The translations under genes were made by a program, and so were the position numbers. Of a stretch of 64,000 bases of DNA, positions 29,785 through 35,165 are shown piece by piece. The stretch spans positions 1 to 64,000 of the forward strand of contig JABGQT010000182.1 in NCBI GenBank assembly GCA_018648685.1, in the 5' to 3' direction. The stretch's first letter is position 1. Each line of letters begins with the position of its first letter. The notes under the pieces are model-generated. The model did no database searches and was not told the origin of the DNA. It saw only the letters and a program-made list of their open reading frames with translations. Origin of the DNA: Anaerolineae bacterium. GTDB taxonomy: Bacteria; Chloroflexota; Anaerolineae; Anaerolineales; Villigracilaceae.

Positions 29785-30072
29785 ATTAACACAAAACTCC
29801 CGTCCACAATGGGACGGGAGGGAATTCCCGCGGTACCACCCACGTTGATCTATCGCACATAACTTGCACAACAAATCCACTCTGTGCCGACTATCATCGG
29901 CTGCCCTGATAACCTTAGGCTTAGGGTCTGAACTACCAATGTGATGCAATCACATTCACACATTCACCCAGACAACTCAGGAGGGAACTTCAATCCGCTT
30001 TCGTCGAGCAGACGTTTCAGCCAATGCACCTGCCTCTCTAACGACTTCCTGCGGACTTACTTTCCTCCGTCA
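29785..30072 (-). promoter_or_regulatory. T-box leader (Phe) of pheST
   Basis: Read on the minus strand: Stem I begins near 30072 (GACGGAGGAAAGTAAG, with the AGTA loop-E element) and returns near 29980 (GCGGATTGAAG, then TTC at 29985-29987, then CCTCC). TTC is a Phe codon in the specifier position. The conserved T-box GGGTGGTACCGCGGG is at 29827-29841. The terminator is CTCCCGTCC/GGACGGGAG (29797-29820) followed by TTTTG. When uncharged tRNAPhe binds, the antiterminator forms and pheST is made. Confidence 0.95.
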
Positions 30073-30086
30073 TCGCGTTGGGGTCT

Positions 30087-30164: not shown

Positions 30165-32522
30165 TCAAGACCTTTCAAACAAATCATCAATATCTTGTTC
30201 AAAAAAATCTTCCTTCCACGCAGTTTCATCTAAGCTATTTATAGCATCATTAGAAACGATTGTTTCATACACCCATTCATTGATATCTATGCTGTCTATT
30301 ATTTCATCAATATCAATATCTATTCCATTTTGAACTCCCTCTAAATCATATGATGAGATGTATTGCGAGGGGGCTTCTCCTTCTTCCTTATCAGGAGCTT
30401 CGTAAACAGTCCGACTGACCGATTCTATACTTGAGTAACCCTCTAGCATATATTCCATACTAGCTCCAATTGCCTCTTTTGCACCCTCTTCATTAAATTT
30501 ATAATTATCTTCATCATCTATTTCATCAAAATGGTTTGATTCTGAATATGATATAAAATCTTCAATATCAATTTTTTTGTAGATCTCATCAATCAAGAAA
30601 CTTGTTATTTCGCTTTGGAATCTTTCACAAATATCATCATTATTAATTTCAAAAAATGCTATAAACTCATCAAAAATTTCTAGTTCAGTTTCGTCAAAAC
30701 TTCTGTCATCACCTATACAATCTGATATGAAACCGAAGTCTTCTATCCCTAACTCTTTGTGAAAACCTATTATTAAAGTTAATAACTTTGAAATCTCGTT
30801 GACTATTAGAGGCTTGGCCGAGATGTTTTTCAGGAATGGAATAATCGTCTGTTTTTTTCTTTGTTCGTGTCTAACTATATAAGCTACAAACACCAAATAA
30901 TCAATGGTTTTTTTTTGTTGAAAAGCGTCATCAAAAAGTTTGTTTTTAAATTCTGCTACTTCCTTAACAGGGATAATTTTTTCTCGTTCTAACGATAATA
31001 ATTGCTCCAAAGATTTAATAGTATTTAAGGATTTAAAAATATTTAGAAGATCATCTGTATTATTCCCATACTCTTCCAAAATATAATCAGCTATCGAGGG
31101 ATTAAATAGAGTATAAGTTATTTTATCTGATTGCTTACTTCGATTAAGAAACGATTTTGTAGCTAATTCCGATATAGAATTGAAATCTTTTTCTGCATGA
31201 GAAGGGTTGGTCAAATTTTCTAATCCGTTAATTTTCTTAAAACCTAATCGTAATTCCTTTTCCGAAATAGCCTTGCCATTAAGCACTGTCAGCTTTACTA
31301 AATTTCTCACATAAGCATTATTTTGTCTCTTGAAATAATCATCCCAAATATCTTTTGGATTATTTAAGTTTCCAAGAATATAGTTCCAGTAATCACTACT
31401 TAAAACATCAAATCTTTCGATATCTGTAATAAATTCTATTATTCTAGGATTAAAATTTTGGTGCTTGATTACCTTTTTATAGCGTTTGTTTTTATAGTAT
31501 TCATCAATATAGTTCTCAGGCAAGTTACTAAACCAAATATGGTTATACAATATTTTCGCGCGATCAAATAATGAAAAACTCTTTATAGACAATAGAAAAT
31601 CATTTTTTTGGATATTATAATTTTTCAGTACACTACTATACAAAATCCCTGCATTTAAGATATTTGTCCTCGAGGTCAGGATAAAGAGTTTTGTCTCATC
31701 TTTTCTTACTCTGTCTATAAACTTGGTGATGTGGGAATCTTTTTTATTTTCTATTGCCTCAAAGTAATTACTGCCAAGAAAATCATCAAAATAAAAAATC
31801 TGTTTTCTGCCTCTAGCATAAACATTCTCCGCTTCACTTAGAGATTCTTCAATATCAAAAAACTCATAGCCTTTTGCTACAAAAAATAAGCACATACTTT
31901 CAGCTAGGGTGGTTTTTCCAATTCCAGGTTCTCCTGAAATAATAAGGACATGATTTTCTTGTAAAATTTTGATAGCCTTGGAGTGTGCTTCCGTTTGAGC
32001 GTATCGAGATGATTTTTCTTGAAACCGCTCTAATTCAAATTCGCTTCTCCCTTTTATTGCATTGTTGATAATTCGATTAAAAACTGTAGTGCTTGAAATC
32101 CAAAGCTTGAAATATTTTTCTTCTATTTCAGGGTACTTACAGAGAAAATCATTTATATCTTCTTGACCAAAAACATCATTTTCTTCTTTTATGTAGGGGA
32201 AGAATATGTTCTTAATTTCCTTTTTATAATCTCGAGATAATGGTAAAGAAGTAACAAAAACATACTTTGCAGGGTTTAGTTTTTTTACTTTTTGTACTTC
32301 TTCTCTTTTTAGAGTAGATATTAAGCCTTGATATCCAGTTTTTAAATAATGCTTACATTGAATAATAGTTTCATTGTTTTCACTAGAAAAATATCGTCCA
32401 TCAACGCCACCATCTTTTCCTGATTTAAATCTTTCTATTCGAGCATCATAAACCTTAGAAAGTAAGTCAGCGGCAAGCCTTTCAAACTCTTTATCATTTA
32501 GTTGGGAAAAATCATAGTTCAT
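30165..32522 (-). CDS. Mrr-type nuclease fused to a STAND-like P-loop NTPase, probable antiphage protein
   Basis: A 785-residue protein in strongly AT-rich DNA. Residues 1-125 form a PD-(D/E)xK nuclease domain of the Mrr/restriction type: KDGGVDGRYF (Asp41) and TIIQCKHY (Gln55, Lys57). A P-loop domain follows with Walker A GEPGIGKTT (197-205), Walker B QIFYFDDFLG (Asp246-247) and an Arg sensor TSRTNIL. A winged-helix and a long helical, acidic C-terminal region follow (rich in Asp/Glu from about 600), with no clear repeats. This order resembles nSTAND3-type and Avs-like defence proteins, where an NTPase senses a phage product and triggers DNA degradation. No partner gene is adjacent. The start has no good ribosome site. 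Confidence 0.82.
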   Translation of the reverse strand: MNYDFSQLNDKEFERLAADLLSKVYDARIERFKSGKDGGVDGRYFSSENNETIIQCKHYLKTGYQGLISTLKREEVQKVKKLNPAKYVFVTSLPLSRDYKKEIKNIFFPYIKEENDVFGQEDINDFLCKYPEIEEKYFKLWISSTTVFNRIINNAIKGRSEFELERFQEKSSRYAQTEAHSKAIKILQENHVLIISGEPGIGKTTLAESMCLFFVAKGYEFFDIEESLSEAENVYARGRKQIFYFDDFLGSNYFEAIENKKDSHITKFIDRVRKDETKLFILTSRTNILNAGILYSSVLKNYNIQKNDFLLSIKSFSLFDRAKILYNHIWFSNLPENYIDEYYKNKRYKKVIKHQNFNPRIIEFITDIERFDVLSSDYWNYILGNLNNPKDIWDDYFKRQNNAYVRNLVKLTVLNGKAISEKELRLGFKKINGLENLTNPSHAEKDFNSISELATKSFLNRSKQSDKITYTLFNPSIADYILEEYGNNTDDLLNIFKSLNTIKSLEQLLSLEREKIIPVKEVAEFKNKLFDDAFQQKKTIDYLVFVAYIVRHEQRKKQTIIPFLKNISAKPLIVNEISKLLTLIIGFHKELGIEDFGFISDCIGDDRSFDETELEIFDEFIAFFEINNDDICERFQSEITSFLIDEIYKKIDIEDFISYSESNHFDEIDDEDNYKFNEEGAKEAIGASMEYMLEGYSSIESVSRTVYEAPDKEEGEAPSQYISSYDLEGVQNGIDIDIDEIIDSIDINEWVYETIVSNDAINSLDETAWKEDFFEQDIDDLFERS

Positions 32523-33500: not shown

Positions 33501-33600
33501 GTAAGGGCGACCCTATAGGCTAAACAACAAAATTTATTTTCAAATCAAACAGCTTATTAACATTAGAATTTCTTTTTTCATCTAAACGGGTCGCCCCTAC
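33501..33600. repeat. Inverted repeat GTARGGGCGACCC flanking 74 bp
   Basis: GTAAGGGCGACCC (33501-33513) and GGGTCGCCCCTAC (33588-33600) are complementary at 12 of 13 positions. They lie just upstream of the ProRS-like gene. The element resembles a REP- or MITE-like unit; the inside is AT-rich and noncoding. A short hairpin (CGTACT/AGTACG) precedes it at about 33455-33480. Confidence 0.6.
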
Positions 33601-33623: not shown

Positions 33624-35165
33624 ATGAAACTCTCAGAAATATTTGGCTCTACGCTCCGCAAAGCCCCAACCCATGCAGAAACCGCATCTTATCAGTGGCT
33701 GGCACGCGGAGGTTATATCCGCGCCGCAAAAGATGGGGATTTCCTGACTCTGCCCCTCGCAGAGCGTGCAATGAACAAGCTCAGGGCAAGGATCCGTCAT
33801 GAAATGGGATCACGTGGAGGACAAGAGATCGGCGCGCACGCTGATATTCTCGCTCTCGCTGCGGGGGATATTCAATCCTATAAACAGTTGCCACAAATCC
33901 TATATTCTTTCGATGAGATCAAGCAAAAAGCTCATCCGCGTTTGGGGTTATTTGGCGCGGCACATTCCCCCAGCGTCAGCATCCATCTTTTAGGCGCAAA
34001 CGAAGAAACACTGCAAAATTGGCAAGGGGCGCTTGAAAAACTGACCAAAGAGATTTTTGAAAAACTCGATTTAGAAGCCAAAAAAAGGGATTCTGGCGGT
34101 TATGCTTTTGTTGCAGAAAAGGGCGGTGCGGATTATATCCACTGTGCGCAATGTGGCTATCTTGACAAGCAGGCAGTTGCAAAACGAGCAAAATCTATGC
34201 TTTCGACAGAAGAGCCGCGCGAACTGGAGAAAGTTGAAACGCCCGATGCGCACACGATTGAAGCGTTAGCGGCGTTTTTGAATATCCCGAAAGAGAAGAC
34301 GGCAAAAGCTGTCTTTATGACCGCGACAATAAAGGATAAAGAAAAACTCATTTTTGCCATTTTACGCGGCGATATGGCTTTAGGCGAAGCCAAATTAATC
34401 GCTTCACTCGGAGCAAGTGCTTTGCGCCCCGCCACCGATGATGAAATTTTGGCGATTGGTGCTGTACCTGGCTATGCCTCGCCCGTTGGGATGAAAGAGG
34501 TGCTCGTTGTTGTAGATGATCTCATCCCCGAATCATCAAATTTGGTCGCCGGCGCAAATGAAGAAGGTTTTCACTTACGCAATGTGAATTATGGGCGTGA
34601 TTACGAAGCCAGTATTGTGACAGACATCGCTCTTGCCCAAGCTGGCGATCGTTGCCCAAAATGCAACGCGGCATTGGACGCTGTTGAAGGTGTAGATCTA
34701 GTTGAGATAACACCTGTGCTGAGCATGAAAGAAGCAACTTTTACCGATGAAAATGGAAAAGGACAGCCGATTTTGGGCGTGAGTTGGACACTTGACCTCG
34801 GCAGAATTTTTGCCGCAGTGGCAGAAAACCATCACGACGATTATGGTCTCATCTTGCCGCCAGCAATTGCCCCCTACGATATTCATCTTGTCTGGCTGCC
34901 CAGCAAAAATGTGAATACCAAAACAGATGCTGATGATCTCTACCTGAATCTGACCAACACCGGTTTTACCGTTCTCTATGATGATCGCGATGCTCGCGCT
35001 GGGACAAAGTTCAACGACGCCGACCTGATCGGCTGTCCGGTGCGGATCACTATCGGTGAACGCACATTAGAAGAAGAAAGCGTTGAGATCAAGTTCCGTG
35101 ACAAAAAAGAAAAAGACTTGGTTGAGCTAGATGATATTGCTAATTTTGTGATTGAGAATCTTTGA
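33624..35165 (+). CDS. ProRS-derived protein lacking synthetase motifs but with editing and anticodon domains
   Basis: 513 residues against about 570 for bacterial ProRS. Residues 1-66 match the ProRS start, including motif 1. About 50 residues holding the next catalytic block (the THEE region) are missing. The motif 2 site (FRDE in E. coli) reads IKQK (99-102), and motif 3 reads WTLDLGRIF (R394) in place of YGIGVSR. So proline activation is probably lost. The editing domain (about 205-345) is intact-looking: Lys228 (TAKAV) aligns with the key Lys of E. coli, and G283-x3-P287 (GYASP) matches the GxxxP motif. CxxC pairs are at 174/177 and 344/347. The anticodon-binding domain (413-513) is complete. 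Likely role: trans-editing of Ala-tRNAPro. A genuine but divergent ProRS cannot be excluded. Confidence 0.8.
   Translation: MKLSEIFGSTLRKAPTHAETASYQWLARGGYIRAAKDGDFLTLPLAERAMNKLRARIRHEMGSRGGQEIGAHADILALAAGDIQSYKQLPQILYSFDEIKQKAHPRLGLFGAAHSPSVSIHLLGANEETLQNWQGALEKLTKEIFEKLDLEAKKRDSGGYAFVAEKGGADYIHCAQCGYLDKQAVAKRAKSMLSTEEPRELEKVETPDAHTIEALAAFLNIPKEKTAKAVFMTATIKDKEKLIFAILRGDMALGEAKLIASLGASALRPATDDEILAIGAVPGYASPVGMKEVLVVVDDLIPESSNLVAGANEEGFHLRNVNYGRDYEASIVTDIALAQAGDRCPKCNAALDAVEGVDLVEITPVLSMKEATFTDENGKGQPILGVSWTLDLGRIFAAVAENHHDDYGLILPPAIAPYDIHLVWLPSKNVNTKTDADDLYLNLTNTGFTVLYDDRDARAGTKFNDADLIGCPVRITIGERTLEEESVEIKFRDKKEKDLVELDDIANFVIENL

Follow-up and report, generated by a model that had tools for sequence, protein, structure and literature searches.

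The 64,000-nucleotide stretch of Anaerolineae DNA analysed here (the window) encodes at 33624..35165 (+) a catalysis-dead, 513-aa paralogue of bacterial-type prolyl-tRNA synthetase (ProRS), recognized from its ORF, Pfam and NCBIfam matches, orthologues and dN/dS. Judged from its sequence, this protein is very probably a tRNAPro trans-editing factor derived from a complete bacterial ProRS, which would clear Ala-tRNAPro with the help of its anticodon-binding domain (ABD), and we propose the name 'ProRS-ed' for it. On a wider scale, we think it likely that such proteins form a widespread Chloroflexota class of trans-editors composed of the INS editing domain and the ABD, eroded from the native ProRS once charging had passed to a type I ProRS that lacks editing. 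Four stages of this process would be preserved, namely an intact copy beside type I, a full-length dead form, the 513-aa form, and a coreless form of ~400 aa.

The ORF starts with ATG and descends from a bacterial-type (type II) ProRS. Its best NCBIfam model is PRK09194 (bacterial proline--tRNA ligase), with 320.5 bits vs a cutoff of 558, and TIGR00409 gives 247.4 bits vs a cutoff of 306.7, below membership of the bacterial-type ProRS family. Bacterial-type ProRSs in the PDB match the protein along its length (ProRS 5znj, E 1.4e-73). Pfam identified tRNA_edit (206-322) and HGTP_anticodon (431-511) in the 513-aa protein, and no match to tRNA-synt_2b, the class II core; all three domains were found by Pfam in the intact homologue L044. 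The N-terminal helices, which end where motif 1 begins (residues 1-68, 33624..33827 (+)), share 83% identity within the genus and are retained in a shorter version by the ~400-aa forms. The INS or YbaK-like editing domain (residues 206-322, 34239..34589 (+)) scores 79.8 bits with PF04073 (cutoff 25.5) and is modelled by AF2 with a pLDDT of ~90. The ABD (residues 431-511, 34914..35156 (+)) scores 70 bits with PF03129 (cutoff 21) and preserves the block YDDRDxRAGxKFNDADLIGCPVR, in line with the full anticodon-binding domain claimed by the original prediction, which was made from the letters of the DNA. For the whole AF2 model (pLDDT 89.9, pTM 0.83), the nearest solved structures are those of Enterococcus faecalis ProRS (TMq 0.83-0.86; Z 39.0, rmsd 3.8, 508 residues), a likeness that is expected and uninformative on activity because the input alignment consisted mostly of intact ProRSs.

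The gene is preceded by a nitroreductase gene on the other strand and followed by a gene for a PDDEXK_3 protein. No operon link with these neighbours was found, and the Rfam scan gave no riboswitch or T-box at the gene. Upstream of the gene, at 33501-33600, lies a 34-nt inverted repeat that is imperfect (71% complementary) and has a 32-nt loop. Its arm sequence is present once in the window, and the repeat may be either a small mobile element or a regulatory hairpin. Elsewhere in the window, a T-box leader (Rfam RF00230, 96.7 bits) at 29807-30082 (-) lies just upstream of pheS-pheT (29949-26122), which fits tRNA-controlled PheRS expression, as expected. At 30165-32522 (-), a 785-aa protein combines an Mrr-type restriction nuclease domain with an nSTAND3 NTPase, an architecture reminiscent of anti-phage defence proteins.

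Alignment of the 513-aa protein with 70 intact type II ProRSs revealed a ruined aminoacylation core. At the junction formed by residues 69-71 (33828..33836 (+)), the protein lacks, between E68 and H72, ~40 residues of bacterial ProRS, and the Pro strand of motif 1 and the approach to THEE are therefore lost; the degenerate AHAD stands at the THEE position. The motif 2 remnant (residues 98-115, 33915..33968 (+)) reads EIKQKAHPRLGLFGAAHS for K(W/F)RD(D/E)xRPRxGLxRxREF, in which EIKQK corresponds to KWRDD, the motif 2 Arg becomes K100, and AHS (residues 113-115) replaces REF. The motif 3 remnant (residues 385-394, 34776..34805 (+)) is GVSWTLDLGR for MGSYGIGVGR, with the glycines gone and the Arg (R394) retained. 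In these alignments, class II motifs 1, 2 and 3 and THEE are thus not intact, showing that the old type II ProRS has lost the residues needed for ATP binding and proline activation. The original prediction had read IKQK for the FRDE of motif 2 and WTLDLGR for motif 3, and the alignments agree on both, with the kept motif 3 Arg as a refinement. Of the motif 1 region that it held to be kept, only the N-terminal helices stand, the Pro strand being deleted; of the THEE block that it held to be deleted, the ~40 residues in front are indeed missing and THEE itself aligns with AHAD.

The ProRS-like fold over the whole length and the motif 3 Arg retained in the genus would suit a prolyl-tRNA synthetase that has diverged but remains functional, charging tRNAPro through altered motifs. 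However, the motif 1 strand is deleted, REF is gone, no tRNA-synt_2b match is found, the motif 2 Arg position varies among the seven genus members (K, E, E, E, T, T and Q at position 100), the core is deleted in sister lineages, and a complete ProRS is present in the genome. This makes an active synthetase extremely improbable, and we rejected it on the motif evidence.

The editing site has a different fate. We take D350 and H369 of E. coli ProRS to be editing-pocket residues; the former corresponds to D298 (34515..34517 (+)), present in all dead forms and 69/70 intact forms, and the latter to the invariant H317 (34572..34574 (+)). K228 (34305..34307 (+)), invariant in 131 aligned proteins, aligns with the editing-essential K279, the editing residue of the E. 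coli enzyme (PMC3973320), and the GxxxP loop is formed by G283-P287 (34470..34484 (+)). The protein therefore has an INS domain with the catalytic Lys in addition to the ABD, and the intact YbaK-like editing domain with Lys228 and GxxxP at 283-287 that had been predicted is confirmed. Among the ~400-aa forms, the residue before the GxxxP glycine has changed from P to A in 14/24. Conservation also marks two CxxC pairs that flank INS, C174 and C177 at its base (34143..34154 (+)), both present in 7/7 genus members and 24/24 short forms, and C344 and C347 (34653..34664 (+)); together they may possibly form a Zn site.

A trans-editing role predicts a phylum-wide pattern in which the editing and tRNA-binding domains are conserved and the core is decayed or deleted. 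We counted site retention in columns at least 93% conserved in intact ProRSs. Between motif 1 and INS, the core sites are retained at 26% in the genus, 5% in the ~400-aa forms and 26% in the other dead forms, and in the motif 3 region at 41%, 26% and 30%, respectively. The corresponding values are 94%, 93% and 89% for INS with the CxxC sites, and 97%, 95% and 92% for the ABD. This selective conservation of INS and ABD with core decay across the phylum lends support to the trans-editing pattern put forward by the original prediction.

Selection on the gene was assessed with the window's copy and its six orthologues in the genus, all seven in the same frame and free of internal stops; the identity of the six to the window protein is 68-75%. 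The median dN/dS is 0.09 overall, with 0.084 for the N-terminus, 0.148 for the core remnant, 0.086 for INS and 0.074 for the ABD, values that are rough in view of the high dS (1.4-2.1) and the saturation of several pairs. These ratios indicate purifying selection and speak strongly against neutral decay. A decaying pseudogene, or what is left of a type II ProRS supplanted by type I, would explain the degenerate core, its faster evolution (0.148 vs 0.08) and the few relatives with an apparent frameshift or a stop (L132, L121, L038), but it is hard to reconcile with open frames at this identity and dN/dS in all seven genus members, with INS and ABD sites being selectively kept, and with matches in about 100 family genomes and more distant Chloroflexota. 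The chance that the gene is such a relic is therefore very slight, and this reading was rejected on the selection evidence.

Charging of tRNAPro can apparently be performed by another enzyme of the same genome. Besides the 513-aa ORF, the genome has one proS gene, which encodes a type I (archaeal/Thermus-type) ProRS of 479 aa (G000:C213:13821-15236; 558 bits vs a cutoff of 437) composed of tRNA-synt_2b, ABD and ProRS-C_1. Type I ProRSs are devoid of INS, and Pfam found no tRNA_edit domain in this one. A second, complete proS, whose absence would have spoken against the original prediction, is thus in place. Of 33 tRNA matches, those in 30 loci were typed; two are tRNAPro genes, with anticodons TGG and GGG, both having C1:G72 and A73, and are of the bacterial kind. 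The genome also encodes three free-standing INS-superfamily proteins, all below the TIGR00011 cutoff, so editing by the 513-aa protein could be redundant; one is closest to Thermus thermophilus TTHA1699 (2cx5, E 1e-40), a ProXp-x (PMC11295145), and the other two are nearer to YbaK. In other genomes, two complete type I copies were observed (G027:C62:9151-10569 and 146302-147720, with equal scores; G599, on C121 and C53).

Of the 152 genomes in the window's family, 150 have a match to type I ProRS and 131 have one above the cutoff. The type II protein is full-length in genera g4, g7, g13, g16 and g19. In g1 (the window's genus) and g23 it is catalysis-dead and ~510 aa long, and in most other family genera it is reduced to ~400 aa, in about 100 family genomes; among the g1 genomes, G001 has the ~400-aa form. 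The ~400-aa layout consists of the N-terminal stub, CxxC-INS-CxxC and the ABD; it lacks the core (stub to first CxxC) and the stretch that links the second CxxC to the ABD. Its presence in the single-contig genomes G016, G066 and G161 rules out an artefact of assembly. Among the matches listed from a phylum sample of 399 genomes, full-coverage matches to the ~400-aa form come only from the window's family. Dead forms of ~500-590 aa are found elsewhere in the order (families f4, f5, f7, f12 and f13, the last being Anaerolineaceae and including Ornatilinea) and outside it in G458 (one contig, 5,258,541 bp), whose homologue has 525 aa, as well as in the class-level families f16, f17 and f25. In G011, G092 and G108, an intact type II gene directly follows the type I gene with a gap of ~50-70 bp. 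L021 (SAYQE for THEE), L057 (THAE, GIDLVR) and L060 look like cases of early decay.

The window's genus and the ~400-aa forms fall in one clade (SH-aLRT 97). Free quick trees require 6-8 changes of state for the dead forms, and a tree with all dead forms monophyletic has a higher likelihood than the free trees and is not rejected (p-AU 0.795). Taken by its sequence features, the 513-aa gene appears as one stage of a reductive series. The original reading is supported, though it did not foresee how widespread such proteins are, that further-reduced ~400-aa forms exist, or that a type I synthetase has replaced the old enzyme. Some irregular copies were also observed. An otherwise intact type II ProRS (L121, G014:C23) and a ~400-aa form (L132, G017:C155) each span two reading frames, and the match in a dead form (L038, G038:C26) contains an in-frame TGA; recent decay or errors in sequencing may be the cause. 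In G015 (L033:3380-3682) and G031 (C82:28076-28189), a further short fragment that matches only the end of the ABD lies downstream of the ~400-aa gene.

Co-occurrence was analysed in order genomes at least 85% complete, of which 135 were assigned a dead form and 121 an intact type II. For ~60 dead forms the class was checked on the sequence itself; the rest were classed from match length and position, with G279, G283 and G284 assigned by similarity to G282. A type I gene, whether whole or truncated by the end of a contig, occurs in 131/135 dead-form vs 72/121 intact-type-II genomes, and the Fisher p of 1e-14 is inflated because the genomes are related, so that the direction is what counts. The four dead-form genomes in which no type I match was found (G052, G083, G128 and G174) likely reflect assembly gaps. 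Type I is present in 9/9 dead-form genomes checked outside the order, and intact and dead type II genes occur together in 0/60 fully listed genomes. Many order genomes (for example in the Anaerolineaceae genera g55, g68, g65 and g71) contain type I and no type II gene, so the function of the factor would be dispensable or covered otherwise there.

These observations are consistent with the following scheme. A type I ProRS without INS would take over the charging of tRNAPro, and the old type II ProRS has lost its charging site and kept the INS deacylase site (K228, D298, H317 and GxxxP) and the ABD. The ABD, reading G35/G36, would bind mischarged tRNAPro, the CCA end would be placed in INS, and INS would hydrolyse the Ala-tRNAPro produced by the type I enzyme; Ala-tRNAAla would be spared because it has no G35/G36 anticodon bases. 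The remaining core may serve as a scaffold keeping INS and ABD in register; it is deleted in most related genera. On its own, the INS of E. coli ProRS does not recognize tRNAPro, and it relies on the ABD reading G35/G36 (Das et al., PMC3973320; PMC11295145), and acceptor-stem changes matter little to its editing (PMC3973320). Because INS specificity depends on the ABD in this way, an INS-ABD protein would be equipped for tRNAPro-specific editing without a charging site.

Ala-tRNAPro is suggested as the substrate by analogy with the parent domain. INS-superfamily relatives vary in amino acid specificity (PMC11295145) and the short forms drift before the GxxxP glycine, so the trans-editor might act on another amino acid on tRNAPro or on a tRNA other than tRNAPro; we regard this as very unlikely, given that K, D, H and GxxxP are retained in the window protein and the tRNAPro is ordinary bacterial. 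The protein might also be mainly a tRNAPro binder, acting as a chaperone or heterodimer partner of type I ProRS or as a sensor-regulator of uncharged tRNAPro, as the equal conservation of ABD, N-terminal part and INS in the genus and the adjoining type I and intact type II genes could suggest. A pure binder, however, would not need the editing residues K, D and H, which are invariant in all dead forms, and such a role is very unlikely. We thus favour trans-editing of Ala-tRNAPro.

Compared with type II ProRSs that contain INS (E. coli; E. faecalis, 2j3l), the 513-aa protein shows whole-length homology and has the same INS site and ABD, but its motifs 1, 2 and 3 are deleted or replaced and it coexists with a type I ProRS able to charge. 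With the free-standing INS deacylases YbaK and ProXp it shares the editing fold with catalytic Lys and GxxxP, as well as a proposed trans action. Those proteins, however, are single-domain and read the acceptor stem or nothing (PMC11295145), whereas the 513-aa protein has an ABD, descends from a full synthetase and scores 15.3 bits vs 153 with TIGR00011, a layout as different as originally predicted. ProRSx of Streptomyces, the only entry for ProRS in a review of duplicated synthetases, is likewise a second ProRS-derived gene in a bacterium, but it loads Pro on a tRNA with an Ala anticodon (PMC9437257); the 513-aa protein has lost its charging motifs, and the tRNAPro genes found in its genome are ordinary. 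A 2024 review describes INS-superfamily trans-editors as single-domain and trans-editing domains generally as lacking RNA-binding domains (PMC11295145), and in the open-access literature we found no earlier description of a ProRS-derived trans-editor with INS and ABD.

If this interpretation is correct, fidelity was preserved after a synthetase was replaced by a non-proofreading one, the old enzyme staying on as a proofreader alone. The INS superfamily, otherwise single-domain apart from ProRS (PMC11295145), would gain an anticodon-reading two-domain member, and a natural minimal INS-ABD protein would become available for studying how the ABD aims the editing site, which is called poorly understood (PMC11295145). 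Automatic naming may moreover count a second synthetase in such genomes, because 'ProRS-ed' proteins score as relatives of 'proline--tRNA ligase'.

The closest parallel is archaeal ThrRS-ed, a Ser-tRNAThr hydrolase according to Korencic 2004 as cited in PMC11295145, where it is pictured as an editing domain with an ABD. Both would combine a synthetase-derived editing domain with an ABD, perform no charging, and stand beside a separate charging enzyme without editing. Unlike ThrRS-ed, the 513-aa protein comes from another synthetase and has another editing fold; its match to the ThrRS model PRK14938 reaches 16.8 bits, through the ABD, vs a cutoff of 362. The features of a split editor, namely synthetase descent, editing domain with ABD, a lost charging site and a separate charging enzyme, are all found in it. 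In conclusion, the 513-aa protein is predicted to work like ThrRS-ed with a ProRS descent, outside the definitions of both ProRS and the single-domain ProXp/YbaK proteins.
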